Below are positions 29,059-49,244 of a stretch of 64,000 bases of DNA, in pieces. Every line of letters begins with the position of its first letter. Position 1 is the first letter of the stretch. The notes under the pieces were generated by a model. That model saw only the letters and a program-made list of their open reading frames with translations, made no database searches and was not told the origin of the DNA. The DNA comes from Asaia lannensis NBRC 102526 (GTDB lineage: Bacteria > Pseudomonadota > Alphaproteobacteria > Acetobacterales > Acetobacteraceae): assembly GCF_024054035.1 (NCBI RefSeq), contig NZ_JAMXQU010000005.1, positions 1 to 64,000 of the forward strand, written 5' to 3'. The position numbers and the translations under genes were made by a program.

Positions 29059-29092
29059 ATTGACCACTCCGTCATCTCGCAGGTCAGGAGTG

Positions 29093-31914: not shown

Positions 31915-32046
31915 AACATTCCTGATCGCTATTGGAATATGAGGTCTCCACCTGACTGGCGGAGTGAAATGACGAGGTTTGTGAATGTTAAAAAACGCAA
32001 ACTCCCGGGCGTTCAAAGCGACGTATCAAAGACATTCGCCTATGAA

Positions 32047-32460
32047 TTAGCGCGTACGCAACGATAACTCGTCGAGTACGGCTTGCTCACGGCGCGTGTG
32101 AGAATCATTACGCTCTTTTTCCAGACGCCGAAAGACCGTTTCTGTCGCCTTATGTCTGACTGCCGTCTCCAGAGCGAAAAGTCGCGCAGTTTCTGTCGCG
32201 GCAGAAGCGTTGTGATATTCTTCTCTGGCGTATGCGATTTTTTCAAGGCCAGACGGAAACCAGACGCGAAACGTCTCCATTGTCACGTTTCCCGCCGTTG
32301 CAATGCGACGTTCCTCGGCAAGTACGTCTGTCGCATAAGTTAGGCTCGCGGATTTGCCATCCTGCAGCTGCTGCGCAGCAATCAGTTGCGTTTGCGCATC
32401 AAGTCTTTCGCGTTCCCGAATTTTGGCCAAAGTAGCGAGGCAGCGCAGGCGATGGGTCAT
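32047..32460 (-). CDS. fliJ: Flagellar export chaperone FliJ
   Basis: A 137-residue, almost fully helical coiled-coil protein directly after fliI (overlap ATGA), the usual place of FliJ. The N-terminus RLRCLATLAKIRERERLDAQ and the charged C-terminal helix (FRRLEKERNDSHTRREQAVL) fit the FliJ stalk that sits in the FliI ring and contacts FlhA. Sequence conservation in this family is low, so the call leans on position, size and helical content. Confidence 0.8.
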   Translation of the reverse strand: MTHRLRCLATLAKIRERERLDAQTQLIAAQQLQDGKSASLTYATDVLAEERRIATAGNVTMETFRVWFPSGLEKIAYAREEYHNASAATETARLFALETAVRHKATETVFRRLEKERNDSHTRREQAVLDELSLRTR

Positions 32461-33881: not shown

Positions 33882-33889
33882 TTGATCGG

Positions 33890-35641
33890 TCAAAACAGAC
33901 CAGAATAAATGCTGGATGAAGACGAACTGTCATCATCGCCGAACAAGGCGAGTATGCCTGATTTCGAGTCGTCACCACCAAACAGATCGAGCATGTCCGC
34001 AGGCTTGTCCGCTGGCTGCGGAGTGATCTGGAGAAGGGTCAGATATTGTTCAGCGTATTTCTGGATCTGATCAGGGGTCTTGAGTTTCGAGAAGTCTACC
34101 TTTTTCGTGAGCATGCGCACTTGCTGATCGTAGCTCAGCGCACCAAACGTCGAGGGATCGTAGCCTGATACGGTCTCAACTACCTGAAGCAACTTGGTAT
34201 CGGACATGATCTGGCTGAGCGAGGTGACGCTGGCCATCTTGCGCGTAAAATACAGAGCGTTGCCTACGCCGTTATCCGTGTTGGCGTCGTTCGATTCATA
34301 TTGCTGTTTCTGATAGTTCGAAACGATCTGATCGATCGACACACCGTCAACCGTACTGGAGACCTTACTGTCGCTCTTGAGCACCGATTGGCTGGCCTCG
34401 GAACTCTGTGACAGATTGGGTGGTTGGAGAGCGACGCTGTACTGCACTCCGTTGACCGTTGCCTGCAGCGAGGGGATGTCATGGGTGTACTGCCCGTTGA
34501 TCTGAAGCACGTTGCCGGAGCCATCGAACCCCACCGACACCACGGTGCTATTGACGGTAGAACCATAAGGATCGACGACGTAAGCACTCCAGGTGCTCGG
34601 ATCGCTGCTGCTTTGCGCCCATTTGACCGACAGATACGTCCGACCGAGCGTAACATTGTTCGTATCGTCAGACGCCTGGTTCGGATTGAAAGGGGCCGTG
34701 ATATAGGTCTGTCCGGTGCCGGAAAGCGCCCCGATTGTCGCGGAGGGCATTGAGAGCGAGGTACTGGAAGAGTCGACGTTCTGCAACAGCACCGACTGGG
34801 TTGGGCTGGTAGCCTGGTAGCTGTTGCCAGCCATGATCACGCCTGAACTGTCCCCGAGCGCGCCCAGCGAGATTGATATTGCCTGACTCTTTTCATTCGC
34901 GTCGTTGAGCGTGATGGGCAGTTCGACTGCCTGTCCGGCTGCACCTGAAGCAATATTTGCTCCGGTTGTCGTATTGGTGGCGGAAGCAAGCGTACCATCA
35001 CTGTTAAATGTCACCTGGAACGCATTGCTCGCGACCGATGCGTTGCCCTCGGCATCAAAGGCAGAGACACTCCAGCTCAAAGGGTTCGTCTGGCTTTGTG
35101 TCCACTGAAGCGCGATCTTGTGAGCCCCGGAAACATCGTCATACGCATCGACGGCGGGCGAAACATATGTCTGGCCAGAGGCCCCCGCAGAGGGGAGCGT
35201 TGCGCTCATCGTCACAGAGCTGGTCGGCGTATAGGTTGTGCTGAGCGCCGTTGAACCGCTACCAGCGATGAACGCTGTGTCGCTAGAGCTACCCTTGTTC
35301 TGCCCCCAGACCTTGAACGCGTCGGCGAAGGCAAGCCATGTCGCGTTTTGAGACGTCTTGGCGAGAGATGTACTGGAGCTGGGGTCCTGCGTTAACAGGT
35401 CCTTGATGAGCGCTGTCGCATTGGCGTAGCTCCCCATCCCAAACGCTCCAAGTACAACCTGAAGAGAAGAATAATCTTTCAGGAGGGCATCAGCAGAGGT
35501 TATTGCAGGCGCTTTTTTCTCAAAGGCAGCAACTGCTTGCTTCGTTGCAATATCGCTCTTGGCGTAATTCGATGCGGCCAGGTCCTCGTCCTTGAGGGCT
35601 GAAAGGTAGCTGGCAACCGGTGATATGTTTGTTATGGCCAT
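33890..35641 (-). CDS. DUF1217 flagellar protein with inserted tandem hook (FlgE-type) domains
   Basis: A 583-residue chimera-like protein. Residues about 1-125 (ADALLKDYSSLQVVLGAFGM, TWLAFADAFKVWG) and about 440-545 (YFTRKMASVTSLSQIMSDTK, FSKLKTPDQIQKYAEQYLTL) form the two halves of a DUF1217 domain, found beside flagellar genes in alphaproteobacteria. Between them, at about 138-430, sits a pair of beta domains that match FlgE of this window (its residues about 168-450): IALQWTQSQTNPLSWSVSAF against VALNWSQSTTNPLVWTASAY, VTFNSDGTLASATN against VTFNSNGTLASVTD, and SVKWAQSSSDPSTW against SLRWAQTSASPPTW. Asp/Gly/Ser-rich tail. No signal peptide, so export through the flagellar system is likely. 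It sits between the globin receptor and fliI. Confidence 0.8.
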   Translation of the reverse strand: MAITNISPVASYLSALKDEDLAASNYAKSDIATKQAVAAFEKKAPAITSADALLKDYSSLQVVLGAFGMGSYANATALIKDLLTQDPSSSTSLAKTSQNATWLAFADAFKVWGQNKGSSSDTAFIAGSGSTALSTTYTPTSSVTMSATLPSAGASGQTYVSPAVDAYDDVSGAHKIALQWTQSQTNPLSWSVSAFDAEGNASVASNAFQVTFNSDGTLASATNTTTGANIASGAAGQAVELPITLNDANEKSQAISISLGALGDSSGVIMAGNSYQATSPTQSVLLQNVDSSSTSLSMPSATIGALSGTGQTYITAPFNPNQASDDTNNVTLGRTYLSVKWAQSSSDPSTWSAYVVDPYGSTVNSTVVSVGFDGSGNVLQINGQYTHDIPSLQATVNGVQYSVALQPPNLSQSSEASQSVLKSDSKVSSTVDGVSIDQIVSNYQKQQYESNDANTDNGVGNALYFTRKMASVTSLSQIMSDTKLLQVVETVSGYDPSTFGALSYDQQVRMLTKKVDFSKLKTPDQIQKYAEQYLTLLQITPQPADKPADMLDLFGGDDSKSGILALFGDDDSSSSSSIYSGLF

Positions 35642-35691
35642 ACACGTCTCCCGGGGTTCCTCCGCTCTTGCCCGATCCTAACGAGAGAAAA

Positions 35692-37269
35692 TTACGAAGA
35701 GGTTTCCAGATGAGGCTCTCCCGCGATCATTCTCCCCGGGCGCCCTCCTCCTTCCGCCGGGGGAGGGGACGTTCCTTCTGACGCTGGATCATGCCCGATA
35801 TCACTGAAGGCAAAGTGTGATACGAGTTCTGCAAGAGAGTCTGCTGTTGACACGAGGCTCTTCACTGCCTCTGCGCTTTCCTCGGCCGCGCCTGCATTCT
35901 GCATGGTCGTCTGCTCGAGGTCGCTCATTGCCACATTGAGTTCGCCGATGCTTTGGGACTGTCTCTGCGCAGATGATGCGATGACTGTGACGGCGCTGCT
36001 GATTTCCCGAACCTGATCCATCACCTTTTGTAGCGCCAGTCCGGCCTCTCGCACTTTCGTAACGCCGAGACGCACATGGGCATCCGATTGAGCGATCAGC
36101 CGTCCTATAGCCTCTGCTGCCTCCCGAGAGCGCTGTGAGAGGGCCCGGACCTCTTCGGCCACCACGGCAAAGCCGCGACCGACATCACCGGCGCGCGCGG
36201 CTTCCACGCTCGCATTCAAGGCAAGGAGGTTGGTCTGGAATGCAATCTCGTTCATGATGGTGATGATGCCACCGATTTCCTGTGAGGAAGACTCAATGGC
36301 AGTCATCGCGGCAATCGTATCGGTCCTGATGATGTCTGCATGTTCTGCCTCACGCTGGGCCACGAGAACCATCTCTTCGGTTTTGCGCGTCTCGATAGCG
36401 GTCTGCTTCACACTGCCGGCTATCTGGCCAAGCGCTGCTGACATCTCCTCCCCAGCCGCCGCCTGTTGTTCGGTACGGCTGGAAAGCTGATCGGCGCCGT
36501 GACCGATATCGGTGGCATTTGTTCCAATATTCACGGCCTCGTTGCTGATATGGTGTATCGTCTTCTGGAGCGTGACCGCAGCCTGATTGAAGTGCAGACG
36601 AAGAGCGTCCAGCCGCTCCGGGACTGCCCCATCTGTAATCCTGAGGGTCAGATCACCATTCGCCAGGGCGCTCAGGGCCTGCCCGAGAGTCTCAACTGTT
36701 GCCTGATCTTCTCGCGCACGCTGCGTCTGCTCCTCCTGTAAACGGAGACGGGCCTGGTCCATGCCATCGAGGTAAGCCGATATTGTAAGATCGATCTCAA
36801 TGAGGACAGCCTTGGTCAGACTTTCGATGCGTCCAGCCATGTCATCCACACTGTGTGAAGACAGCTTTTTCAGAATGCCCCGGGGCTGATCATCGCGGAT
36901 GATTTCATGCATCAGAGCAACAAGAATCCGGCCATATGCACCGATGTAAAAGCTGGGTTCCAGCCCGATACGGGCATGAGTTGTCCCTATCTTTGTGACA
37001 TGTGCAACGTAATCCTCGTCAAACCGCGCCTTGGCTATACGTTGCCAGTGGGCGAGTTGCGCCTCTTTAGCACGCTCCATATGGGCGTTATCAGTAAAGA
37101 ATGCACGTGAGCGCGGTGTTTCACGGATCTTCCGGTAGAGGCCGTCAAGTACTCCCGGGAGTTCCCGTTCTATGAGACTGGCCATCGAGCGCAACGAGGA
37201 GAGATCACTCTGTCCCATGCCAATGAAATCCTGCCTGCGTGCCAGATCAGAGAGTAGGGTTTCAGTCAT
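35692..37269 (-). CDS. HemAT-like aerotaxis receptor (globin-coupled chemoreceptor)
   Basis: A soluble 525-residue receptor. Residues about 1-165 form a sensor globin (protoglobin-type): [40 protein letters not shown] and [20 protein letters not shown], with His98 as the proximal haem ligand candidate. There is no membrane segment. A linker and HAMP-like part follow, then the signalling tip ([20 protein letters not shown]) at about 340-365. It should sense oxygen and signal through CheA, as HemAT does. ATG 37269 was chosen because the 20 extra upstream residues (to 37329) carry no domain. The C-terminus is Pro/Gly-rich without a CheR tether. Lies 50 bases before the DUF1217 gene, i.e. inside a flagellar operon, which fits an obligately aerobic host. 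Confidence 0.9.
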
Positions 37270-37427
37270 GTTGCAGCTTCTCGCTTGTTCGTTGGTACTC
37301 AATGGTGCGGTGCGCCCCCTATTGAGCAAACCTTCAAGAGAGCGTGAAGAGAGGATTGTTTGTAATCATTGTCAATGATCTGGCCGTGCGGAGCCTTTCG
37401 GGCTGGTTTCTGGGGGCGAGGTGAAGC

Positions 37428-39623
37428 CTAGGTAATCGTCTCGATGGTTTTGATACGTGCCCGGGGATAGATTTCTGCCTGGGATAGCACCGGGACCGCG
37501 GGGCGTACGCGCTCAACGATTGATCGCATTGAATCGCGTACAGTCGAGGAGACGACGATGACCGGCACCTCGCCACTTGCTGAAACGGCGTTGAAGGCGT
37601 CGCGCAGTTTGATCACGAAGCGATTGAGCATGGATGGCGGCATGGCAAGTCGCCGGTCATCGCCTTGTCCGGCTATATGAGCGGCGAAGTCGTTTTCCCA
37701 TTCCGGAGAGAGGGTAATCATCGGGATATAACCTGCGGGCCCCTCCAGGCCGCTGCAGATTTGTCGGGAGAGGCGGATGCGCACATGAGCGGTGAGGGCC
37801 TGGATGCCTCGCAAGCCCAGACCATTACCCTCCTGGATGCTCTCTAGAATTGTGGGCAGGTCGCGTATGGAGACCCGTTCGGCGAGAAGCGACTGCAACA
37901 CACGCTGCACCGTACTCAGGGTAACCTGTGATGGAATGAGGTCTCCCACCAGCTTCTGCTGATCCCGGGGCAGTTCATCGAGCAGATTCTGGGTCGCTAC
38001 GTAAGTCAGCAAATCTGGCAGATTTTGCCTCACAAGTTCGCTGAGATGTGTGACCAGAACACTCGCAGGATCGACGACCGTGCATTTGAGGGCCATGGCT
38101 CGCGGCTTGAGGGCCGGTGCAATCCACACGGCGGGAAGACCGAAAGCGGGTTCTGATGTCCTCTCACCCTCAAGATCGGGAGCGCCCCCCGATGGCGTCA
38201 TGGCCATAAGGCGGCCAGGCCGGACTTCACCACTACCGATGGTGATTTCCTTCAGTTTGATAACGTAGTGATCAGACGGCAGGACGATATTGTCCTGTAT
38301 GCGAATGGGCGGTGTAATGAAGCCCATCTCGGATGCGATTGTTCTCCTCAGCGCCTTGATCTGCTCGGTGAGTTGCGCGTTCTCACCATTGGTCATTGGA
38401 AGAAGCCCGAACCCGAGCTCAAGGCGAAGCAGATCCAGTTTGAGCACATCAGAAATAGGTGACGCAGAAGGGGCCGGGGGCGCTTCGCTGACGTCACTGT
38501 CATTTTCATCTGGTGTCGGAACTTTCCAGCGCCACCATGCAGCGGTGCCGGCAAGGGCGCCAATGATGAGGAACGGAAACGCTGGTAGCCCAGGCATCAA
38601 TGCGAAGCAGCCAGAGAGAATCGCGGCCATCGCCATGGGTTTCGGGTTTCCGCCGAGCTGGCGGACAAGCGTGACGTCTGCCGACCCCGCAGTTCCCCCT
38701 TTGGTAACTACGATACCGGAGGCTGTCGAAACGAGTAGGGCAGGAATCTGGGAAACCAGTCCGTCACCGACAGTCAGTGTTGTGAACGTACTTGCCGCAT
38801 CGCCGATAGGCATGCCGTAGCGGAGGACACCGATAGCCAACCCCCCGACAATGTTGATTCCTGTAATGATCAGCGCTGCGATGGCATCACCGCGGACAAA
38901 TTTTGCAGCACCGTCCATGGCGCCGTAAAACGAGCTTTCGTCTTCGAGCTCCCTGCGCTTGAGGCGTGCTACCCTGTCGTTGATGGCTCCTGACGACAGC
39001 TCGGCATCGATGGCCATTTGTTTGCCAGGCATGGAGTCGAGAAAGAAGCGTGCTGCAACCTCTGCGATGCGTCCCGAGCCCTTCGTGATGACCATGAAGT
39101 TCACGACGAGAAGAATGCTGAAGACGATTCCCCCGATCACGACATCACCGCCCATCAGGAACCCTCCGAATGCGGCGACAACATGCCCTGCAGCAAAGGT
39201 GCCTTCGTTGCCGTGGCTCAGGATAAGGCGTGTTGTCGCGATTTCGAGCGAGAGGCGGAGCAGTGTCGTGAGGAGAAGCAGGGTAGGGAATGAGGTGAAT
39301 TCAATGGGTCTCTCCAAAAACAGGGAAACCATCAGAACAAGCACGCTCGATGTGATTGACAATGAGAGACCGAGATCGAGAATGAAAGTCGGCAGAGGGA
39401 TGATCAGAATCGACAGCAGCAGCAACACGCCGAGCGCAAGGCCGACATCGGTGCCGGGGATCGCCCGTCGCCAGGAGGTCTTGTAACTGCCATCTCTGAC
39501 GGATTGAGATGCCTTCGTTATTTGCCCGGTCAAGGAAGAAAAAAGTTTTGAGGCAGCGTTGCCACCCGTGCGCGATTTGCTGGAGGAAGGGGCACGGACC
39601 GGAGAGACGTTTGCGCTTTCCAA
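37428..39623 (-). CDS. flhA: Flagellar export gate protein FlhA
   Basis: A 731-residue FlhA. The N-terminal membrane domain has about eight segments from residue 58 (VGLALGVLLLLSILIIPLPT). The conserved LLRLSLEIATTRLIL, SGRIAEVAARFFLDSMPGKQ, AIDAELSSGAINDRVARLKR and FVRGDAIAALIITGINIVGG stretches mark the FHIPEP family. The C-terminal cytoplasmic domain (from about 380) forms the docking ring for chaperones and FliI/FliJ. A 50-residue Ser/Lys-rich N-terminal extension precedes the first helix. The start is the TTG at 39623 with AGGAAAG upstream; no in-frame ATG precedes the first helix. FlhB is not adjacent. Confidence 0.95.
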   Translation of the reverse strand: MESANVSPVRAPSSSKSRTGGNAASKLFSSLTGQITKASQSVRDGSYKTSWRRAIPGTDVGLALGVLLLLSILIIPLPTFILDLGLSLSITSSVLVLMVSLFLERPIEFTSFPTLLLLTTLLRLSLEIATTRLILSHGNEGTFAAGHVVAAFGGFLMGGDVVIGGIVFSILLVVNFMVITKGSGRIAEVAARFFLDSMPGKQMAIDAELSSGAINDRVARLKRRELEDESSFYGAMDGAAKFVRGDAIAALIITGINIVGGLAIGVLRYGMPIGDAASTFTTLTVGDGLVSQIPALLVSTASGIVVTKGGTAGSADVTLVRQLGGNPKPMAMAAILSGCFALMPGLPAFPFLIIGALAGTAAWWRWKVPTPDENDSDVSEAPPAPSASPISDVLKLDLLRLELGFGLLPMTNGENAQLTEQIKALRRTIASEMGFITPPIRIQDNIVLPSDHYVIKLKEITIGSGEVRPGRLMAMTPSGGAPDLEGERTSEPAFGLPAVWIAPALKPRAMALKCTVVDPASVLVTHLSELVRQNLPDLLTYVATQNLLDELPRDQQKLVGDLIPSQVTLSTVQRVLQSLLAERVSIRDLPTILESIQEGNGLGLRGIQALTAHVRIRLSRQICSGLEGPAGYIPMITLSPEWENDFAAHIAGQGDDRRLAMPPSMLNRFVIKLRDAFNAVSASGEVPVIVVSSTVRDSMRSIVERVRPAVPVLSQAEIYPRARIKTIETIT

Positions 39624-39832
39624 AATGTCAGCTTTCCTAGCCTAAGTCATGATGCCGACGGCATTGCTGCGCAACGGGCCCCGACCTGTCGTCCTGAAAT
39701 GAATGATACGCCAATCGTTGCGGCAGGCGCTTGAATCTCGCGCCAAGAGGTATCCCGTCTCGCGTAGATGAGGCAAGATATTAAGCGTTACGCGTTCATG
39801 GATCGCTAACCTGCTTTCGAAATGACCTGAAC

Positions 39833-41422
39833 ATGATCGGTGATGGCATGACACAAGACACGGCTAGTCCGGAACCGCGAAATCTGACACATGCTTCATC
39901 GCCTGCTGAGCAGTGGTGGAAAATCCCGGGTGCACCGCCGGATGTCGGGAAGTTTGTTGAGGCATGCGAGGCCCTGCTGGGCTCAGGTGACGGGATCAGC
40001 GGATTAAAACTTGTACTCGAAACGATGGCAGTCCATCAGGACGAGTGGAAGCTCTCTATGGCGGGAGCGTCGCTCATCCTGCGTTTCACAACGCGTTATG
40101 ACATCGTTGGGGTCCTGCTGCGCAATGTCATACGCCTGCAACCTGACAATGTGCCCGCCCAGGCTTTCTCCGCCCATTTGCAGATCGTGCGCGGGGACGT
40201 AAGCGGCGGCTGCGCAAGCTTTGCACAGATGATGGCAACATATCCCGGGCAGAAAGCGGAGATCGGGGAATTCATCAGCATGTCCCTGCTTGAAGTCGGG
40301 TATCCTGCTGAGGCGCTTGCGGTGCTGAAATCTCTGTTCAACGACGGAGATGAAACAGCGTCACTGCTCAATAATGCCGGTTGTGCGCTCGAGCGGCTCA
40401 ATCGCTCCGTTGAAGCCCTGCCGTGGTATGAAAAAGCCCTCAGAATCAGCCCTGAACGCAAAGCTATCGCGTTCGGTTATGCCTGCACCCTGATCAAGGC
40501 GGGTCTTTTTGAGAGAGGCTGGCCACTCTATTTCGAGCGCGAATTGCAGATAACCCCACAGCAGGGCTGGGTACGCAGCATTCCCCGGCTCCGTCCTGAT
40601 ATTGGCCTCTCAGGGAAGCGTATCCTTGTCTTTCAGGAGCAGGGGTTGGGGGATACGATCCAGTTTATACGTCACCTATCCGCCCTTGCAGCGCGTGGTG
40701 CCGAAATCCACGTCTGTGTGCCCGCCTCTCTGGTGCGCCTTGTGCGTCAGTCCTACCCGGCTTTGACGGTGCTGGACCCTGTGAGTGCTGTTACGAACCA
40801 CGCATATGATTACGCGTGCCCCGTGCCGGATCTACCCTTTATCAGCGGGGTGCGGACGGTGCACGATATTCCAACCTGCATTCCATACATTACCGATATC
40901 CCCGCTGACCGAGAAAAAATGGCGGCCCTGCTGCCAGCGGGTAGACCGCGGATCGGTCTTGTATGGGCTGGCGAGCGGCGTCTTCGCTCAGAATACGCAT
41001 TGGCTGATATGCGGCGCTCGATTTCCTTCAGCGATCTCGCCGAGGCGCTCCTCCCGGCTGAGGCGACCTTCGTCAATCTGCAATTCGGGACACCAAGGGA
41101 AGAGCTGAAGAACTGGGGCGGTCAGACAATTCATAATCCCATGAGCGAGGTACGAGACATGGCGGATACGGCGGCCATCATGCGTAATCTTGATCTGATC
41201 ATCTCGGTCGATACGTCACCCGCGCATCTCGCCGGAGCGCTTGGTTGTCCCGTATGGTTGATAAGCCGTTGGGATGCGTGCTGGCGCTGGGGGGATTCCG
41301 GAACAGGGAGCCCATGGTACCCTACAATGAGAATTTTCCGTTCGAATGAGCGCTCTTTCCTTCCTGTCCTTCAAGAAGTCGGAAAAGCGCTGCGACTCTG
41401 GATCGATATGCGAGGCGTCTGA
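39833..41422 (+). CDS. FlmG-like TPR glycosyltransferase (copy 1)
   Basis: A 529-residue protein. TPR-like helices lie at about residues 50-235 (LLNNAGCALERLNRSVEALP, WYEKALRISPERKAIAFGYA). A GT-B-like glycosyltransferase domain follows at about 255-520: RILVFQEQGLGDTIQFIRHL, RPRIGLVWAGERRLRSEYAL, DLIISVDTSPAHLAGALGCP and SRWDACWRWGDSGTGSPWYP. The TPR-plus-transferase layout is that of FlmG, which binds flagellin through its TPRs and adds a nonulosonic-acid sugar in Caulobacter. A paralogue lies at 54517-55935. ATG 39833 or 39848 may be the start; no clear ribosome site. Divergent from flhA. The acceptor is inferred. Confidence 0.75.
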   Translation: MIGDGMTQDTASPEPRNLTHASSPAEQWWKIPGAPPDVGKFVEACEALLGSGDGISGLKLVLETMAVHQDEWKLSMAGASLILRFTTRYDIVGVLLRNVIRLQPDNVPAQAFSAHLQIVRGDVSGGCASFAQMMATYPGQKAEIGEFISMSLLEVGYPAEALAVLKSLFNDGDETASLLNNAGCALERLNRSVEALPWYEKALRISPERKAIAFGYACTLIKAGLFERGWPLYFERELQITPQQGWVRSIPRLRPDIGLSGKRILVFQEQGLGDTIQFIRHLSALAARGAEIHVCVPASLVRLVRQSYPALTVLDPVSAVTNHAYDYACPVPDLPFISGVRTVHDIPTCIPYITDIPADREKMAALLPAGRPRIGLVWAGERRLRSEYALADMRRSISFSDLAEALLPAEATFVNLQFGTPREELKNWGGQTIHNPMSEVRDMADTAAIMRNLDLIISVDTSPAHLAGALGCPVWLISRWDACWRWGDSGTGSPWYPTMRIFRSNERSFLPVLQEVGKALRLWIDMRGV

Positions 41423-41427
41423 TGCTT

Positions 41428-42270
41428 TCAGCCTGTTGGGCGCGCCAATTGCGTAGGGCTGCTTCGGTATGATGCGAGGCTGCGTCCTCTCATGCCGCTC
41501 ATGCCTGAATGATGAGGGGCAGGCTGGGTGAAATGGCTGAAACCCTGGAAAGGATGAAATGCCCTCACAGCAGGCTGTGTTCCCTCACGCGCATCAGCAA
41601 CGATTGTATCGCCGTAGGGAGACTGGCTTCGTGGCGCCGCCAAATCAATCGCGCCCTTACGCTGAGGCGGGTGTTTGACGTCCCCTGACGGGCCTATCCG
41701 TTCGTCATCAGGTATGGCCCAGGTTTCGAGCACCTTCCATTGATACGGGGCTCCGAGCCCCGGGGTTTGGGAATGATAGGCCGCCGCCGCACGCGGCCAA
41801 CTTCCCATCTTGTCGTGCATCTGGTTAAGAAAACGCCCGGCATAGAGAGCATTCGAGGTTGGATCGAACGCCTCATCAAGTGAATGGAAAGCATCCGGAT
41901 GCTGTTGCAGGTTGACCTGCAAGCACCCGACGTCGATCGACATAATACCCGCATTGCGAAATTCGGTTGCCGCCGCGACGGCGTCCTGTTTGGAATCGTA
42001 ATAATGGCCAACGCCATTGGCCATTATTGTCCACGGCCAGGACGACAGTCGCCCCTGCGCGTCGGTCTTGCCGCTTTCGACCCGACTGATGGCATATAAG
42101 AAACCTTCGGGAATGCGGAGGACTTTTTCGGCCTGGCTGGAGGCTATACGGCAGCGCTCAGCTTCCATCGTCTGAGACAGGGCCGGCACGGGAGCGAGTG
42201 CAACGCTGAAACCCAACATTGCGAGAGACGCGCTGGCTGATTTCGATAGGCGTGATTTCATGAAAATCAT
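41428..42270 (-). CDS. Secreted lytic transglycosylase (flagellar SltF-type candidate)
   Basis: A protein of about 280 residues with a signal peptide (SASLAMLGFSVALAPVPALS) and an SLT domain. The catalytic Glu65 lies in LYAISRVESGKTD, followed by WPWTIMANGVGHYYDS, SIDVGCLQVNLQQHPDAFHS and AGRFLNQMHDKMGSWPRAAA. It cleaves peptidoglycan glycan strands. FlgJ in this window has only the rod-binding part, so a separate muralytic enzyme such as SltF of Rhodobacter is expected, and this gene, divergent from flgI-flgJ, is the natural candidate. The tail from about 200 is disordered. ATG 42270 is used; 42300 and 42261 are alternatives. Confidence 0.8.
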   Translation of the reverse strand: MIFMKSRLSKSASASLAMLGFSVALAPVPALSQTMEAERCRIASSQAEKVLRIPEGFLYAISRVESGKTDAQGRLSSWPWTIMANGVGHYYDSKQDAVAAATEFRNAGIMSIDVGCLQVNLQQHPDAFHSLDEAFDPTSNALYAGRFLNQMHDKMGSWPRAAAAYHSQTPGLGAPYQWKVLETWAIPDDERIGPSGDVKHPPQRKGAIDLAAPRSQSPYGDTIVADAREGTQPAVRAFHPFQGFSHFTQPAPHHSGMSGMRGRSLASYRSSPTQLARPTG

Positions 42271-42627
42271 GAGTCCGTTGCGCCTCTCAGCGAAATCCAT
42301 GGCAGTCTTTCATTGGCGTCTATGTGACAGCGGGATTACGGTTCGCCGTGGTGCGGCATAGATCAATATCAAAGGTCTTCCCGTTACAGGATAAGCAGGC
42401 GTTATGACAATCATTATCGCTTTTGCAACAATGCCGGTGTGAAACTGTCTCTCTGTTGGAGAGCGTTAACCTTGTTGTGGTTGTAAGTGACGGGCCTGTG
42501 TCGTAGGGTGTCATTGCTGGCGCCTGTCGTACAAGATCACTATCGATGGTGCAGGCTTATCCATTTGACAAAGACATTTTGATACGCACTCCGCGTCACA
42601 CCGGGAACTGGGCTGGACGATCATACG
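42271..42627. other. Divergent upstream stretch between lytic transglycosylase and flgI
   Basis: About 360 bases without a gene, holding the two divergent start regions. A CtrA half-site-like TTAACC occurs at 42466-42471 but lacks the second half. I see no clear promoter, hairpin or RNA gene. Confidence 0.5.
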
Positions 42628-43770
42628 ATGCATTGTCGTAACGGGAAAAAGACGTTTGGCTGCCTGATAAAGACGCTCCTTTTTTGTATGAGCCTGGGAA
42701 TCGTGGGTTATGCGCCGGCGTCAAACGCTACCGCAGTACGCGTCAAAGATATTGTCGATTATGAGGGTGTGCGTGACAACCAGTTGGTCGGGTACGGATT
42801 GGTTGTCGGTCTGCGAGGAACGGGCGACCGGCTGACAAACACGATCTTCACTCGCGAGACCCTCATCAGCATGCTCAATCGTCTTGGAGTGAATATCCGT
42901 GATCGAGAAGTCCAGTTACAGACTCATGATGTAGCCGCAGTCATGGTAACCGCGACTTTGCCTCCTTTCTCTCACGGAGGTGGGCATATCGATGTTACGG
43001 TATCGGCAGTGGGCGACGCTCGTGACCTTGCAGGAGGCACGTTGCTGGTAACGCCGCTCCAAGCAGCAGACGGTGAGGTCTACGCTGTGGCGCAGGGCTC
43101 CCTCGTCACGAATGCTTTCTCAGTCGGAGGGACGGCGGCCTCGGCTACCCGGAATATTCCAACGACAGGGCATATCGCCAATGGCGCAGTTGTCGAGCGC
43201 GAGGTGCCGGTCTCTCTGGGTAGAAGCGGGCTGATCCATCTCTCCTTGCGAAACCCGAATTTCACGACGGCAAACAGAATCGTCAATGCCATCAACCGTT
43301 CTCTCGGATATGGCACGGCCAAAATGGATGATCCGCGCACGGTTTCAGTTAATATGGCCGGGCGAGACGCGCCCTCGCTTCTCTATCGGATCGGCGATCT
43401 TATGATCGAACCGGATACGATGGCCAAAGTCATTGTGGATGAGGCAAGTGGGACCATCGTGATGGGCGATAATGTGCGCATCAGCACGGTTGCCATTGCG
43501 CAAGGCAACCTTACGATCCAGGTGACGGAAACTCCGTTGATCGCCCAGCCTGCCCCTTTTTCCAATGGGACGACGGCGATCGTGCCTCGAACGCAGATCG
43601 ATGCCAGTACAGACAGTTCTCACCGATTGGGTATTCTTCGTGAAGGTCCCACGCTCGCGAGCCTTGTTGCCGGGCTGAACGCCTTGGGAATGGGGCCGCG
43701 CGATATGATCAGTATCTTGCAGGCTATCAAGGCTGATGGCGCTCTCCAAGCGGATCTGGAGGTTCGATGA
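42628..43770 (+). CDS. flgI: Flagellar P-ring protein FlgI
   Basis: A 380-residue FlgI. A signal peptide (CLIKTLLFCMSLGIVGYAPA then SNA) is followed by the strongly conserved VKDIVDYEGVRDNQLVGYGL, VVGLRGTGDRLTNTIFTRET, LVTPLQAADGEVYAVAQGSL, NPNFTTANRIVNAINRSLG and ASGTIVMGDNVRISTVAIAQ. It forms the ring around the rod in the peptidoglycan layer. It leads flgI-flgJ-flgN-lipoprotein on the plus strand. ATG 42628 gives a normal signal peptide, though the ribosome site is weak. The last codons supply the GGAGG of flgJ. Confidence 0.96.
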   Translation: MHCRNGKKTFGCLIKTLLFCMSLGIVGYAPASNATAVRVKDIVDYEGVRDNQLVGYGLVVGLRGTGDRLTNTIFTRETLISMLNRLGVNIRDREVQLQTHDVAAVMVTATLPPFSHGGGHIDVTVSAVGDARDLAGGTLLVTPLQAADGEVYAVAQGSLVTNAFSVGGTAASATRNIPTTGHIANGAVVEREVPVSLGRSGLIHLSLRNPNFTTANRIVNAINRSLGYGTAKMDDPRTVSVNMAGRDAPSLLYRIGDLMIEPDTMAKVIVDEASGTIVMGDNVRISTVAIAQGNLTIQVTETPLIAQPAPFSNGTTAIVPRTQIDASTDSSHRLGILREGPTLASLVAGLNALGMGPRDMISILQAIKADGALQADLEVR

Positions 43771-43771
43771 C

Positions 43772-44107
43772 ATGACGGCTTTGACGCCTGTAACACTCTC
43801 TTCTCTCTCTGCTGCGCAGAGCGAGACACTGGCTAGAGCACAGGAGGCTACCCGAACCGCGAAAGCTGACAAGGCACGCGAAACAGCGAGATCTTTTGAG
43901 GGCCTTACGCTGGGTGAGTTACTTCAGCCCATGTTTGACACTGCTGACATCTCAGACAACGAATTTGGTGGAGGGGCAGCCGAAAAGCAGTTCCGTTCCC
44001 TGCAAGTGCTGGAGATGGGAAAGCAGATAGCCAATAATGGCGGGATCGGTATTGCCGACAGTGTGTATCGACAAATACTCGCGATGCAGGAACACGAAGA
44101 GACATGA
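43772..44107 (+). CDS. flgJ: Rod-binding protein FlgJ (without muramidase domain)
   Basis: A 111-residue protein with the N-terminal FlgJ domain: AKADKARETARSFEGLTLGE, LLQPMFDTADISDNEFGGGA, AEKQFRSLQVLEMGKQIANN and GIGIADSVYRQIL. FlgJ caps the growing rod. The muramidase half found in enterics is missing, as is usual in alphaproteobacteria. ATG 43772 lies one base after the flgI stop with GGAGG 9 bases upstream; the frame's earlier ATG (43736) lies inside flgI without support. Overlaps the next gene by ATGA. Confidence 0.92.
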   Translation: MTALTPVTLSSLSAAQSETLARAQEATRTAKADKARETARSFEGLTLGELLQPMFDTADISDNEFGGGAAEKQFRSLQVLEMGKQIANNGGIGIADSVYRQILAMQEHEET

Positions 44108-44511
44108 TCGGTATGCGCTCAGACCAGACATCACCCGTCATAAAAGCGGCATCGCGGCTTATGGCCCTGCTGAAAGTGGAAAATGAACAGCTCCGTCAGG
44201 GGAAGCCTGCACAGATTGAGTTGCTGCTCGCGGATAAAACAGAATTACTGTCAAAAATGGCGCAGGCACTGACTCAATTTGAGGACCGGGGGGGCGATAA
44301 AACAGCGCTGATGCCGACCATGGGGGACCTGATCGCGCTTGTTGCGGAGAACCAGGTTTTGCTCGAACATATGTCAGTGGTGCAAACCGAATTCCTGAAA
44401 TTGATATGTGCCGCGCCCGTTGAAGAAATTACGCAGGCATACAGTCCGTCAGGTCACTACGTCACGCCGACGACAGAGAGCGCTGCCTTGACCCTTCACA
44501 GTGAAATCTGA
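44104..44511 (+). CDS. FlgN-like flagellar chaperone
   Basis: A 135-residue helical protein overlapping flgJ by 4 bases. It shows the long-helix pattern of FlgN (LMALLKVENEQLRQGKPAQI, LLADKTELLSKMAQALTQFE, LVAENQVLLEHMSVVQTEFL). FlgN is the export chaperone of the hook-filament proteins FlgK and FlgL, both encoded to the right. The family is poorly conserved, so the call rests on the helix pattern, size and place after flgJ. The tail from about 105 is unstructured. Confidence 0.7.
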   Translation: MIGMRSDQTSPVIKAASRLMALLKVENEQLRQGKPAQIELLLADKTELLSKMAQALTQFEDRGGDKTALMPTMGDLIALVAENQVLLEHMSVVQTEFLKLICAAPVEEITQAYSPSGHYVTPTTESAALTLHSEI

Positions 44512-44526
44512 GAGTTGAAAGACCGT

Positions 44527-44985
44527 ATGCGCGTTAGACTGATGAGGTCGACAGGTCTGTTTGTGAGCTTGGCGTTGACTGCCTGTCAGTCTCCAGCAAA
44601 GCCGTATCTCACCATGGGTAAACGGATAGCGGATGCGGGGTTTATAGCCCATCCCGCAGATACAACCGCACGATACGCAATGATGAATTCGCTCCCGCCT
44701 GGTGTGATGACCTATCGGCCTGCTCCTAGCGGTCCCATCTATCTCTACGCAGACCCGATCGGATGCGGCTGTGTTTACATGGGATCAGAAGTGGCGTTCG
44801 TTTATCTTCTGAATTCGACCCCTGTCGTTCGAAATCAGCACTTGCCCATCAAGAATGTCCCTTCGATTGCAGCGATGGCCGCTGAGAATCGACGTAATAC
44901 CAGCGTCTGGGACTGGAGCGCCTGGTCCAGTCTTGCAGACCCCGGTGCTACGCAGCCCCGATATGTAGCCGGGGCTGCGTGGTAG
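44527..44985 (+). CDS. Putative lipoprotein with a CGC-Y motif, unknown function
   Basis: A protein of about 152 residues. A signal peptide with lipobox LTAC (LFVSLALTACQSP) is followed by ARYAMMNSLPPGVMTYRPAP and YLYADPIGCGCVYMGSEVAF. A pattern of this kind (PP-x-R, then YADP and C-x-C-x-Y-x-G) recurs in small uncharacterised alphaproteobacterial envelope proteins. The last in-frame stretch is encoded by a long inverted repeat (44950-44980). ATG 44527 is used; the frame opens with TTG 44515. It follows the FlgN-like gene closely and may be an outer-membrane partner of the rings, but this is a guess. Confidence 0.6.
   Translation: MRVRLMRSTGLFVSLALTACQSPAKPYLTMGKRIADAGFIAHPADTTARYAMMNSLPPGVMTYRPAPSGPIYLYADPIGCGCVYMGSEVAFVYLLNSTPVVRNQHLPIKNVPSIAAMAAENRRNTSVWDWSAWSSLADPGATQPRYVAGAAW
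44950..44980. terminator. Strong hairpin inside the end of the lipoprotein gene
   Basis: ACGCAGCCCCG (44950-44960) pairs perfectly with CGGGGCTGCGT (44970-44980) around a 9-base loop. It lies in the last codons of the lipoprotein gene (stop 44985), with the convergent DUF6468 gene ending at 45001. An 11-bp GC-rich stem between convergent genes is a likely two-way transcription barrier although the U-tract is missing. Confidence 0.55.
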
Positions 44986-45000
44986 AAACGGCTCGGTTCT

Positions 45001-45603
45001 CTACTCGCCGAGAAACTTGCTGCCCATACGTTGGCGAGCATGATGACCTTCTGGCACCGGCTTGCGGGCCTCGGCAACCACGGGCGTGACGGCCGGGCGT
45101 TGCTCGTGTCGCTCTGGTTCAAGAATGGGAGCCTTCGTTGGGGTAATGTTATCCTCAAGGGGAGCTTCGGTATTTTCCGGGTCGTCTCGCAGGATAGGCG
45201 ACTCTGACTGTCGAAGCATATCCAGTTTTACGTCTGACACATCATCCAGAAGCTTTCCCAGGGATTGCTCACTGGATTCCGCTTTTCGTGTCAGAACGCT
45301 GAGCTGCTCAGCCTTCGAATCTGCCTTGTCCACAAGCGTATCCAGTTCACCCCCGACGATCTTGGCTTGCTCGATCGTGCGGCTCAGCGGTCGTCCGCTG
45401 ACTTGACCCGCAACACGCAGCTTTTCAACACCATCATGCGCGTTTTTGATACTGCTCTCGAGCTTTTCGATAAGTTTGACGAGACTTGCTCTGTCGCTCT
45501 TCAAAGCCGACAGGGTCTTGCTGATGTGAAAGTTATAGGCGATGCCTAACAGCAGCAGAACCGAGAGTGCCGCTTCTATGAATACCTGAATTTGGGCGAG
45601 CAT
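45001..45603 (-). CDS. DUF6468 flagellar-operon protein (membrane anchor, coiled coil)
   Basis: A 200-residue protein: one N-terminal membrane helix (FIEAALSVLLLLGIAYNFHI), a long coiled coil at about residues 30-125 (LIEKLESSIKNAHDGVEKLR, VDKADSKAEQLSVLTRKAES) and a Pro/Glu-rich tail. This is the layout of the DUF6468 proteins encoded beside fliM in many alphaproteobacteria, with no assigned function. It follows fliM here (48-base gap). GGAGGATCGAGAGAGA precedes the ATG. A stator- or C-ring-associated membrane role is conceivable but not shown. Confidence 0.75.
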   Translation of the reverse strand: MLAQIQVFIEAALSVLLLLGIAYNFHISKTLSALKSDRASLVKLIEKLESSIKNAHDGVEKLRVAGQVSGRPLSRTIEQAKIVGGELDTLVDKADSKAEQLSVLTRKAESSEQSLGKLLDDVSDVKLDMLRQSESPILRDDPENTEAPLEDNITPTKAPILEPERHEQRPAVTPVVAEARKPVPEGHHARQRMGSKFLGE

Positions 45604-45651
45604 TCTCTCTCGATCCTCCGTTATTTATCGTCAGCCTCGTTTTGCGGGATG

Positions 45652-46794
45652 TCAGTCCATAGTCTCGAAGTCAGTGCTGGCCTCACTCGGGTTGTGTATA
45701 TGCGGGCTATCCTCGGGCACAAGCCGATGATCGATCTTCACCGCTGCTTTCCCCCCTGATTGCCCCAGATGCCCCTCGAAGAGTGTCGTCTGATTACACT
45801 GCAGCGTCACAGGGAGGGTGTTTTTCACCTTGTGGGGAAATACGAGCTGCATACCTGGCTTCATGGTGAGCAATGTCGAAAGGCTGACGGTCTGCTCCTC
45901 AAGCACAGCCAGGATTTCGGCATTGGTTTCCATAATTTCGGAAATAAGGTGGTTTTCCCAAACCGAATCACGGCCAAATCGCTCCCCCATGAACTGCTGG
46001 GAGAGCAGATCTCGCACAGGTTCGAGGGTTGCATAAGGGATGACAAGATCCATATTGCCGGTCCGGTCCTCCATATCGATATGCATCTTCGATGTCACGA
46101 CAGCATTTGAAGCACGAGCGATCGCCGCAAAGCGTGAGCTTACTTCGAGCCGTTCAAAGATAAGGTCGATCTCGCATACTGGGCTGAACGCGACCGACAG
46201 TTCCCGCAGGGTAAGGTTCATGAGCTTTTCGATCAGAGTGCGCTCTATAGCGGTGTGAGGCCGCCCTTCAGTGCCTGAATGACCCTTCCCACGCGGACCA
46301 CCCATGAGGATATCGATCATGGAGTAGGCCAGCGCGGAATCGATTACGAGAAGACCGTAATTCTCCCATTGGACAGCCTTGAAAACGCAAAACAGCGAGG
46401 ATGACGGCACGCTGTTGACGTAGTCGCCGAAACACATGGAGCGCGTGTATTCTGTGGTAATTTCGACATTGTCATTCGTGAAATTCCGAAGGCCCGTTGT
46501 GAGGAGGCGGACCAGACGGTCAAGCACGATCTCGAGCATCGGCATGCGCTCGTAAGCGACAAAGCCGGCCCTGATCACACGCTCCATTCCCGTCTCGTGC
46601 CGTTCAGGCAGATCGCTGAATGCGCCGCCAAGGAGATTGTCAATCTCCGACTGGTCGAGCATCTGGTTTAGCGTTTCTTCTTGCTGAAAAGCCCCGGAGG
46701 CGCTGCCCGAAAAGGGGTCATTCTCGGTCTCGACCGCGGGGGCGGCCCAGGCATCAGGTATGGGCGGGATATGGTGTTCACTAGGCGACATCAT
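45652..46794 (-). CDS. fliM: Flagellar motor switch protein FliM
   Basis: A 380-residue FliM. The N-terminus carries LNQMLDQSEIDNLLGG, a form of the CheY-binding/EIDALL-type peptide. The CheC-like middle domain includes RLLTTGLRNFTNDNVEITTE, IDILMGGPRGKGHSGTEGRP and LTLRELSVAFSPVCEIDLIF. The C-terminal SpoA domain (LSTLLTMKPGMQLVFPHKVK) pairs with FliN. FliM receives CheY-P and sets motor speed or direction. ATG 46794 or the next codon is the start. Order: fliL, then fliM, then the DUF6468 gene. Confidence 0.95.
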   Translation of the reverse strand: MMSPSEHHIPPIPDAWAAPAVETENDPFSGSASGAFQQEETLNQMLDQSEIDNLLGGAFSDLPERHETGMERVIRAGFVAYERMPMLEIVLDRLVRLLTTGLRNFTNDNVEITTEYTRSMCFGDYVNSVPSSSLFCVFKAVQWENYGLLVIDSALAYSMIDILMGGPRGKGHSGTEGRPHTAIERTLIEKLMNLTLRELSVAFSPVCEIDLIFERLEVSSRFAAIARASNAVVTSKMHIDMEDRTGNMDLVIPYATLEPVRDLLSQQFMGERFGRDSVWENHLISEIMETNAEILAVLEEQTVSLSTLLTMKPGMQLVFPHKVKNTLPVTLQCNQTTLFEGHLGQSGGKAAVKIDHRLVPEDSPHIHNPSEASTDFETMD

Positions 46795-46840
46795 GAAACT
46801 CTGCCTGCATCGAAAGGACCGATGTTTATCTCAACCGGTC

Positions 46841-47359
46841 TCACTGTATGAGGAATTCGGTAATATAAAAATTGGTGATCTTGAGGGGCGCTATCTCAAT
46901 TCTAAGCCGCCTCAGAAGAGTTTCACGCAACCTGTACACCCCGTTTCCCCTTATCTCCTGAGGGCGCGTCTCGTGTAGATAGGTCTGAAATATATCCTGG
47001 ATCTGGGGAATATACCGCCTCAGCGAGGCCTCATTCTGAGTTCCTGCAATCTCCACACGCGTTGTCATCTTCACATAGACGGGTCGATTTTCACCATTAT
47101 CGAGGCTCGAGATGATGGATGGTACCGCCAGAATGGTGCTTTGGGCAGTGGACGGGTCAGCAGCCTCTGCTGTCTGCTTCGTTGACGAAAACCACCCCTT
47201 ATGGACTGCAAGATATCCTGTGCCGGCGATTAAAGTGAGCAGGATCAGTGATGCTGCCACGAGAATGAGGCGTTTCTTTCTGGGTTGAGCCTTCATCCCA
47301 AGCCGATCGTCATCGACAACGTTGATGTCGAGATCGTCGTTCAGGCGGGATTCACTCAT
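46841..47359 (-). CDS. fliL: Flagellar basal-body associated protein FliL
   Basis: A 172-residue FliL: a charged cytoplasmic N-terminus, one TM helix (LILVAASLILLTLIAGTGYL) at about residues 30-50, a linker and a periplasmic stomatin-like domain with VYVKMTTRVEIAG, YIPQIQDIFQTYLHE and LRETLLRRLRIEIAPLKITN, ending FYITEFLIQ. It forms a ring around the stator and stabilises MotAB. GAAAGATAA precedes the ATG. First gene of fliL-fliM-DUF6468. Confidence 0.92.
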   Translation of the reverse strand: MSESRLNDDLDINVVDDDRLGMKAQPRKKRLILVAASLILLTLIAGTGYLAVHKGWFSSTKQTAEAADPSTAQSTILAVPSIISSLDNGENRPVYVKMTTRVEIAGTQNEASLRRYIPQIQDIFQTYLHETRPQEIRGNGVYRLRETLLRRLRIEIAPLKITNFYITEFLIQ

Positions 47360-47482
47360 TTATCTTTCGCTCACGTTCTTCTGGCAGTGATTTTAGTTTG
47401 ATTAATGCGCCATTCATGCGCGGACGGAAGTTTCCGGGGCGCCATAGGAGGAGCATCCTCCTGCGAGGCCGCCTTGTTTCGA

Positions 47483-47506
47483 CGGGCAGCATCAGACTGC
47501 TGCCCG
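47483..47506 (-). terminator. Terminator-like hairpin after flgE
   Basis: CGGGCAGCA (47483-47491) and TGCTGCCCG (47498-47506) form a perfect 9-bp stem with a 6-base loop, about 20 bases after the flgE stop on the minus strand. The following bases are not U-rich. Its position between flgE and fliL makes it a good candidate for ending flgE transcription. Confidence 0.55.
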
Positions 47507-47525
47507 GGAAAATCGTCCTTTTATA

Positions 47526-49244
47526 TTATTGCTTCATGGCAATGGTAGCCTGCAGCAGAGTGTCCGCAGTGGTGATGACCTTGGTATTGGCTGAATACGC
47601 TTCCTGAGCAACGATCAGGGCAGAAAGGTCGCTTGTGAGATTTGTGGTTGAAGACTCTGTGTAACCTACGGAGAGTGTTCCGGTCCCGTTGGCGCCAACA
47701 GTGCCGACAGCGGGGTTACCAGACGCTGCGGTAGCGGTGTACGCTTGCCCGTCTACCGCGTTCAATCCGTTGACATTGGCGAAATTGGCAAGCGCAATCT
47801 TGCCTGCAAGTTGGGATGCCCCGTTGCTGAACTGCGCCATGACCGATCCGTCGCTCTGTATCTGAACGCCCTGATATGTGCCAGCGGCTACAGCGTCGGA
47901 TGTGAGAGCTGTCGTGTCCTGTCCAAGCGAGCTCGAAGTCGAGAGCAGGGGGCTCGTTGTGCTGGTCATGTCTGGCAGCTTCACCGTATAGGCCTGCCCG
48001 TTGATCGTGGCGGCAAGAGTCGTCGGGGGTGAGTTTGCCGTGCCGTTCGCATTGAAGGTGATCGAACTCGTCGAGCTCAGCGCAGCGCCGGTAGAGGAGT
48101 TGATGGCCGACACGTTCCAGGTTGGCGGCGAGGCAGATGTCTGAGCCCACCGAAGCGATACGGGCGTACCCCCGACATCAACAGGCGACGTCATATAGCT
48201 CTGGTTCGAGCCGGTGGCCGTACCGATTTGAGAGCTGTCCTCAGTGAGTGTCGAAGTATTCTGATCAAGCGTCAGGCTCGAGACTGCGCTTTTGCTCGCA
48301 GTGCCCGTCGATTGTGCCATGATCGTTCCGCTGGTGCCACCAATGGTGCCCAGTGACAGGCTAATCGACTGAGAGGTATTCGTTCCATAGGACGCTGTGA
48401 TGGGGAGCGTTACAGCCGCGCCAGTGGTGGTCGAGCCAACTGTAGCTCCCGTCGAATCCGTCACGCTGGCCAGAGTGCCGTTACTGTTGAAGGTGACGTT
48501 ATAGGTGTTATCCGCCTGATTGATGGCGCCCGTTCCATCTGCGTCATAAGCGCTGGCAGTCCAGACGAGAGGATTTGTGGTGCTTTGAGACCAGTTGAGC
48601 GCCACATGATGCTGTGTTGCGTTCGCGTCATACACTGTCACGGGTGCAGTCGTGTATGTCTGGGCATCACTGGCGGTATAATTCGCCGAATTTGCAGGCA
48701 TTGTGCCCACAGTAGCTGTCAGCGTGAGCTTGCTCGTCTGTGGCTGACGATAAGTGATATTGCCAACATTGATCTGCGTCACACTTGTGCCAAGCTGTCC
48801 GGACGACGGATCGACCAGATATCCGTCGAGGTAATAACCGCTGGTATTGACAAGATAACCTTGGTTGTTTTGCGAGAACTCACCGTTGCGCGTATAATAG
48901 CTCTGATCTGAAAACTGTGTTGTGCTCGCATTGCCAGCGCCGTTCGCCTTGGAGACAACGAATAACCCATTCCCAGAAATGGCCGAGGCAAGACTGTTAC
49001 TGCTGCTGGTCGGTGCACCCTGATTATCGACATGCTGCACCGTGATAGCGGATACGGAATCCGAGACATCGGCCGAGGCCGTGCTGCCAATCATCGAGCC
49101 AGCAACGAAGTTCTGGAACGAAGTCGTATCGGCTTTGTAACCTACGGTCTGACTGTTTGCGATATTATTACTGAGATTTGTAAATGCCGTTGACTGCGCG
49201 TTTATTCCGCTGACGGCCGTCGTGAGCGCGTTAAATACTGACAT
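47526..49244 (-). CDS. flgE: Flagellar hook protein FlgE
   Basis: A 572-residue hook protein. The N-terminus (SVFNALTTAVSGINAQSTAF) leads into TNLSNNIANSQTVGYKA. Residues about 80-165 are the FlgE core with ISGNGLFVV and YYTRNGEFSQNNQGYLVNTS. Two tandem hook outer domains follow at about 168-310 and 320-450 (VALNWSQSTTNPLVWTASAY; VSLRWAQTSASPPTWNVSAI). The C-terminus has ESSTTNLTSDLSALIVAQEA, then YSANTKVITTADTLLQ. ATG 49244 was chosen because GGGGACACTCTG precedes it and the family start then fits; the frame runs 52 codons further without support. The paired outer domains recur in the DUF1217 protein (33890-35641). Confidence 0.94.
   Translation of the reverse strand: MSVFNALTTAVSGINAQSTAFTNLSNNIANSQTVGYKADTTSFQNFVAGSMIGSTASADVSDSVSAITVQHVDNQGAPTSSSNSLASAISGNGLFVVSKANGAGNASTTQFSDQSYYTRNGEFSQNNQGYLVNTSGYYLDGYLVDPSSGQLGTSVTQINVGNITYRQPQTSKLTLTATVGTMPANSANYTASDAQTYTTAPVTVYDANATQHHVALNWSQSTTNPLVWTASAYDADGTGAINQADNTYNVTFNSNGTLASVTDSTGATVGSTTTGAAVTLPITASYGTNTSQSISLSLGTIGGTSGTIMAQSTGTASKSAVSSLTLDQNTSTLTEDSSQIGTATGSNQSYMTSPVDVGGTPVSLRWAQTSASPPTWNVSAINSSTGAALSSTSSITFNANGTANSPPTTLAATINGQAYTVKLPDMTSTTSPLLSTSSSLGQDTTALTSDAVAAGTYQGVQIQSDGSVMAQFSNGASQLAGKIALANFANVNGLNAVDGQAYTATAASGNPAVGTVGANGTGTLSVGYTESSTTNLTSDLSALIVAQEAYSANTKVITTADTLLQATIAMKQ

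Follow-up and report, generated by a model that had tools for sequence, protein, structure and literature searches.

Why does a flagellar protein that is not the hook protein carry the outer domains of the hook? The question is raised by a stretch of 64,000 nucleotides of Asaia lannensis NBRC 102526 (contig NZ_JAMXQU010000005.1, positions 1 to 64,000, here called the window), in which a protein of the DUF1217 family (PF06748), P0001, and the hook protein FlgE are both encoded on the minus strand (as shown in Table 1). An initial annotation of the window claimed that the two proteins share two outer domains, which is confirmed by BLASTP: residues 140–405 of the DUF1217 protein align with residues 170–423 of FlgE (222–475 of its 624-residue open reading frame, ORF) at 37% identity (E 9e-42). 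The Smith–Waterman score of the insert against the outer region of FlgE is 440, while 1000 shuffles gave a mean of 84, a standard deviation of 12 and a maximum of 139; D2 alone scores 300 (shuffle maximum 86) and D3 alone 133 (shuffle maximum 66). The similarity does not come from low complexity. In Pfam, DUF1217 is matched in two stretches (133.7 bits, cut-off 22.9) and FlgE_D2 (PF07559) in the same protein (27 bits, cut-off 22.7), so that the DUF1217 domain is indeed interrupted by the insert, with a lobe on each side, as had been proposed.

The profile alignment and structure prediction that the annotation had suggested as checks give the same answer. The profile of the FlgE-type inserts matches FlgE with a probability of 100% (E 2e-41 for a single comparison), while 20 other window-gene profiles, a few of them of one sequence only, reach at most 1.3%. 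The AlphaFold model of the DUF1217 protein has intermediate confidence (mean pLDDT 74.5, pTM 0.50), and its top six Foldseek matches in the PDB are crystal structures of FlgE D2 or the FlgE dimer (E 2e-6 to 2e-5, probability 1.00), followed by the DUF1217 structure 2o8s (E 1e-3). D2 and D3 are distantly alike in both proteins, and none of 1000 shuffles reached their score. No other ORF of the window has a D2 or D3 profile match; the genome of the window contains two FlgE_D2 genes at E 1e-3, and a search of three Asaia genomes gave exactly two in each, FlgE and DUF1217. The FlgE D0/D1 families (PF00460, PF06429 and PF22692) are found by Pfam in FlgE and are absent from P0001, which is therefore not a hook protein. 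Judged by these comparisons, the insert (residues ~136–425) is homologous to FlgE D2 and D3 in the same order, and the window protein is a member of DUF1217, not FlgE.

Compared with the known DUF1217 structure, 2o8s (Agrobacterium AGR_C_984p), the window protein has both helical lobes and, between them, a 313-residue insert that is present neither in 2o8s nor in most of the Acetobacteraceae members listed. The two-lobed fold of 2o8s is matched by the predicted models, the model of an unsplit relative reaching template modelling (TM) scores of 0.68/0.81 over 225 columns; this unsplit core matches only 2o8s in the PDB and no other flagellar protein. DUF1217 occurs in 192 of 249 Acetobacteraceae genomes, mostly as one unbroken match among the matches listed, that is, without an insert. 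Since the 31 genomes looked at more closely were picked mainly for double or weak DUF1217 matches, the number of inserts is a minimum. In all 21 aligned insert-bearing proteins of this set and the window, the largest insert follows one common core column between the helical lobes. The site rests on the first alignment, outside whose 21 proteins the tandem Acetobacter forms lie; a second alignment of all DUF1217 proteins smeared the insert borders over core columns 113–122 and placed the tandem forms at column 27.

BLAST splits the inserts into mutually unrelated classes. The classes recorded are FlgE D2-D3 (five proteins), a beta-rich insert of ~335 residues (four genera), a 120-residue unit in one to three copies (also in G600, locus L194, of another family), ALTTAQ repeats (PF20080), a long insert in G203 that is helical by inspection, and a tandem DUF1217 copy; a PHROGs search gave nothing useful. 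As for the split architecture that the annotation wished to see searched for across the Acetobacteraceae, the constant site stands, while the FlgE type is only one of several kinds of insert. A scan of named genomes gave 51 DUF1217 loci, among which FlgE-type inserts are carried by 4 Asaia, 7 Gluconacetobacter and 2 Acetobacter species; at 8 loci the encoded protein is longer and falls with the tandem DUF1217 form in BLAST, and the other 30 have no large insert. In Gluconacetobacter takamatsuzukensis (L123, 8657-11701 (+), 1014 residues), four tandem D2 copies and a D3 are present, and the FlgE of this species has no D3.

Three further observations concern the copy number of DUF1217. Five consecutive DUF1217 matches lie in a single protein at L195 1599-3458 (-). 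Some larger Acetobacteraceae genomes have an unsplit DUF1217 gene and also a DUF1217 gene that bears an insert (second copies in G143, G195 and G209; loci L106, L107, L110 and L143). G192 and G228, two genomes of the window's genus that are 99–100% complete, have no DUF1217 or FlgI match, as if the flagellum had been lost.

Trees were used for the origin of the insert. The D2 inserts lie on one side of a branch from all 30 FlgE D2 domains (support 87/82, 91% of 200 bootstrap trees), the D3 inserts are likewise separated from 16 FlgE D3 domains (94/90, 96%), and the DUF1217 cores of the carriers form one group (89/94, 86%). The insert and core trees are unrooted, and inserts do not pair with the FlgE of the same cell. 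As far as such trees can tell, this fits a single ancient transplant followed by descent with the host protein, without homogenisation with the cell's own FlgE: the D2-D3 pair would have been copied once into the linker in an ancestor of the present carriers of Asaia, Gluconacetobacter and two Acetobacter species, and then inherited. FlgE itself has D3 in 16 of 30 proteins (10 of 14 carriers, 6 of 16 non-carriers), so the architectures of the insert and FlgE D3 are not locked together; because FlgE lacks D3 in 4 of the 14 carriers, a match between insert and hook is not required. Strict hook mimicry, in which the insert would track its own FlgE, is ruled out by the trees and the D3-less FlgE of carriers. 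The earlier suggestion that the insert presents the surface of the hook or templates it finds no support in that form, on the same grounds and on account of the unrelated modules at this site elsewhere. For the glycosyltransferase that the annotation had also brought in, the one hint, and no direct evidence, is a pair of nearby TPR proteins with weak GT9 matches. The nonsynonymous divergence (dN) of the D2 insert exceeds that of the N-lobe in 10 of 11 pairs, and its ratio to synonymous divergence (dS) is 0.09–0.35 in the 7 pairs whose dS is finite, some near saturation. The insert is mostly faster-changing than the lobes, yet it is under purifying selection.

Is the protein exported? Substrates of the flagellar type III system have no cleavable signal peptide and are poor in cysteine. 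The N-terminus of the DUF1217 protein is not hydrophobic (maximum mean hydropathy over 15 residues 1.1), which is the basis for assigning it no cleavable signal peptide. Cysteine is absent from 45 of the 51 named DUF1217 proteins as called, and in 5 of the 6 that have it, it lies upstream of the match start (L149 judged by position). FlgE has none in 30 of 30 proteins, FlgD and FliK are likewise nearly devoid of it, and the orthologues of FliI, FliM and FliJ contain 12.3, 8.8 and 6.2 per 1000 residues, respectively. The genes on the minus strand of the window run in the order flhA, a protoglobin chemoreceptor gene, DUF1217, fliI, fliJ, a gene for 286 residues, motB, motA, fliK and flgD; in 31 of the 51 named loci the first window-gene homologue detected beyond DUF1217 is fliI, followed there mostly by the same genes from fliJ to flgD. 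In addition, the extracellular proteome of Asaia bogorensis contains in both media FlgE, flagellin, FlgK and a 'Flagellar hook protein FlgE D2 domain-containing protein', A0AAN4R0D8, and in minimal medium only FlgB, FliE, FlgG and FlgD; FliI, FliM, FliG and FliF are not mentioned in the text of the paper (PMC12502724). With just two FlgE_D2 genes in every one of the three Asaia genomes, A0AAN4R0D8 is, by name and gene count, most likely the DUF1217 chimera. Scarce cysteine, the N-terminus, the operon with FliI, FliJ, FliK and FlgD, and this proteome thus indicate that the DUF1217 protein is probably exported, as the annotation had supposed when it spoke of a hook-type module in another flagellar protein.

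Exchange of outer parts seems to extend to other alphaproteobacterial families. In G322, FlgE_D2 repeats precede the DUF1217 C-lobe (30.5 bits in hmmscan, cut-off 22.7), together with an FlgE D1-like stretch. Since a FlgE_D2 search of 39 class-level genomes missed this case, absence there is weak evidence. Nine long DUF1217 forms (780–973 residues) from six families have some 500–700 extra residues, apparently before the last C-lobe helix, as judged by weak tail matches (5–9 bits in 5 of 9) and a reading of the ends. Residues 448–552 of one long form match flagellins in the PDB (best E 4e-5), and the nine-row profile of the long forms matches 19 flagellins in hhalign with 93.6% (E 2e-7 for one comparison; 21 controls at most 0.6%). 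Flagellin_N is found in the DUF1217 gene itself in 3 of 10 long-form genomes searched: G453 (26.7 bits, cut-off 26.6), G548 (19.7) and, weakly, G423 (14.5, E 0.08). A relation of these segments to flagellin is probable. In the literature searched, DUF1217 is named by two papers only, in both of them a single time and within a table, and SMc03023 is presumably a DUF1217 gene. SMc03023 is described as a gene of the flagellar regulon with unknown function (PMC2848241).

With moderate confidence, the DUF1217 family can be read as axial-type flagellar proteins of alphaproteobacteria that are exported, lie outside the cell and bear an exchangeable outer module. The two conserved helical lobes would be responsible for the conserved function, and exchangeable outer modules would be taken up by the linker that joins the lobes, as D2/D3 hang off the cores of FlgE and flagellin; some other families would have a second insertion point in the C-lobe. 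At the hook stage the protein would be exported via the flagellar type III system, its place would be on or beside the hook and proximal filament, and the insert would act as a spacer or surface module that points outward rather than as a part forced to lock into the hook lattice. Flagellin likewise consists of a conserved helical core with an exchangeable hypervariable D2/D3 insert; flagellin-like pieces occur in the long forms, while the DUF1217 core itself has no similarity to flagellin (1.0%). If this holds, a family without known function gains a concrete identity, that of an exported axial component of the flagellum whose outer modules are swapped, which also bears on how filaments are built in alphaproteobacterial flagella without FliD. 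Asaia is employed in mosquito paratransgenesis work (PMC12502724), and an extra, probably exported flagellar protein of this genus is therefore of practical interest.

Several observations weigh against this reading. Cysteine is less scarce in a second, mixed set, where 11 of 36 DUF1217 proteins contain 1–6 (start codons untrimmed), and MotB, FliF and FlgA, which are not exported by type III secretion, are also rarely endowed with cysteine. The authors of the A. bogorensis proteome consider lysis probable, and their predictor places A0AAN4R0D8, as well as flagellin and FlgK, in type II secretion (PMC12502724); the identity of this protein comes from name and gene count, not sequence, and its strain differs from the genome of the window. 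The other insert classes gave no relation to FlgE, flagellin or FliD. In 20 of the 51 named loci an unsplit DUF1217 has no window-type flagellar gene detected nearby. The N-lobe of the G322 protein is cut by the contig end, and this protein matches only 2o8s and no FlgE in the PDB. As for the long forms, only 1 of the 9 proteins has a direct flagellin profile match (0 of 450 block shuffles), and their nine-row profile matches in the PDB 2o8s and one dehydrogenase, taken as chance, and no flagellin.

Among the alternatives, a hook-stage assembly factor, such as a FlgD partner or a hook–rod or hook–filament adaptor whose D2-D3 insert touches hook subunits, is suggested by the operon with FliK and FlgD and by FlgE-type modules in DUF1217 proteins of two families. 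Such a role is unlikely, in view of the D3-less FlgE of 4 in 14 carriers and the D3 of 6 in 16 non-carriers, the unrelated inserts at the same site, and the PDB matches of the unsplit model, which include no further flagellar protein.

The filament cap FliD (PF07195) has helical ends and an outward beta insert in mid-protein, a layout that DUF1217 resembles by analogy. There is a rather slim chance that DUF1217 stands in for FliD in alphaproteobacteria lacking it, with inserts corresponding to FliD D2/D3. An equally small probability is given to a cap or tip protein of such flagella, with an exported helical core at the growing end that wears modules of the subunits it handles; these may be FlgE D2-D3 in acetic acid bacteria and flagellin-like repeats in other families. 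The occurrence of the two families is largely exclusive. Among 337 alphaproteobacterial genomes, 200 are FlgI-positive, of which 36 have DUF1217 only, 70 FliD only, 2 both and 92 neither (matches at E 1e-3; 75 of 78 FliD above cut-off); ~14 with both would be expected under independence (Fisher p 3e-6, which ignores phylogeny). In the double carriers, G398 and G486, FliD is next to homologues of FlgE/FlgK, and DUF1217 is at another place. FlgI is present in 195 of the 249 Acetobacteraceae genomes, 180 of which have DUF1217, 7 FliD and 8 neither; a further 12 carry DUF1217 and lack a FlgI match, and none of the 249 has both DUF1217 and FliD. The window also encodes FlgD, FlgJ, FlgK and FlgL, and FliD was not found in its genome. 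Motile Rhizobiaceae are reported to lack FliD (PMC6913195), and three chains of 9u7y, which shows the tip region of a complex for initial filament assembly, resemble the model weakly (E 0.02–0.13; chain identity unchecked).

Against a cap stand the 92 flagellated genomes and the Caulobacter control with neither protein, as well as the FliD gene listed for Brucella (PMC8781033). Six of the 7 FlgI-positive Acetobacteraceae with FliD have a divergent FlgI (E 8e-104 to 1e-114), so that their whole flagellar system differs, and the exclusion in this family was rejected as proof of a cap; the seventh genome, G221, is 87% complete. The operon belongs to the hook stage, and the unsplit core matches 2o8s alone. 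No sequence, profile or fold similarity of DUF1217 to FliD was established: the profiles match at 0.4% in hhalign, a weak test, since FliD matches flagellin itself at just 0.1%. The DUF1217 core as a homologue of FliD or flagellin is accordingly unsupported by PDB matches and profile comparisons.

A neutral passenger in a tolerant linker, in a protein that acts intracellularly or together with FliI at the export gate, would agree with the many unrelated inserts and the 4-bp overlap with fliI, but its chances are slimmer still, given the purifying selection on the insert, the scarce cysteine, unlike in FliI, FliJ and FliM, and the likely presence in the extracellular proteome.

Table 1. Coordinates of the DUF1217 gene, flgE and neighbouring flagellar genes in the window.
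Feature	Position	Strand	Basis
DUF1217 protein with FlgE-type insert (P0001, 583 residues)	33890..35641	-	Translation, Pfam, BLASTP
DUF1217 N-terminal helical lobe, residues 1-114	35300..35641	-	Alignments, AlphaFold model
Whole insert between lobes, residues 115-427 (313 residues), borders +/- ~10 residues	34361..35299	-	Largest insert vs unsplit homologues
FlgE D2-type beta domain of DUF1217 protein, residues 136-283	34793..35236	-	BLASTP, Pfam, Foldseek, Smith-Waterman
FlgE D3-type beta domain of DUF1217 protein, residues 289-425, distant copy of D2	34367..34777	-	BLASTP, trees, Smith-Waterman
DUF1217 C-terminal helical lobe, residues 428-583	33893..34360	-	Pfam, AlphaFold model
FlgE hook protein, 572 residues, start at M53 of 624-residue ORF	47526..49244	-	ORF, Pfam
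FlgE D2 domain, residues 170-318	48291..48737	-	BLASTP, Pfam
FlgE D3 domain, residues 330-425	47970..48257	-	BLASTP, Smith-Waterman
fliI, start overlaps DUF1217 stop by 4 bp	32457..33893	-	Pfam, neighbourhood
fliJ (25.1 bits, below Pfam cut-off 28.4)	32047..32460	-	Pfam
286-residue gene of DUF1217 operon	31156..32016	-	Pfam scan, neighbourhood
motB	30031-31137	-	Pfam
motA	29093-29965	-	Pfam
fliK-like hook-length gene (19.8 bits, below Pfam cut-off 29.8)	26677..29067	-	Pfam
flgD, hook cap gene	25861..26631	-	Pfam

The start of FlgE at 49244 is internal to a longer mechanical ORF that reaches 49400. The named loci with an unsplit DUF1217 and no window-gene homologue are L138, L146, L153, L155 and 16 others; in three such loci, the 10 neighbouring ORFs scanned gave no flagellar match, the matches including a pyridoxal phosphate (PLP) decarboxylase (L138, L155) and CobT (L138, L153). 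The 286-residue gene has no Pfam match at E 0.01 and has orthologues in 30 named loci, mostly immediately before motB; its product is rich in cysteine and therefore probably cytoplasmic. The protoglobin chemoreceptor gene (35692-37329 (-)) lies between flhA and DUF1217; by best match, Asaia sp. W19 is the only one of the 51 named loci in which it was seen. Finally, two TPR proteins (39833-41422 (+) and 54517-55935 (+)), one of them directly after flgL, have weak, sub-cut-off Glyco_transf_9 matches and are possible flagellar glycosyltransferases.

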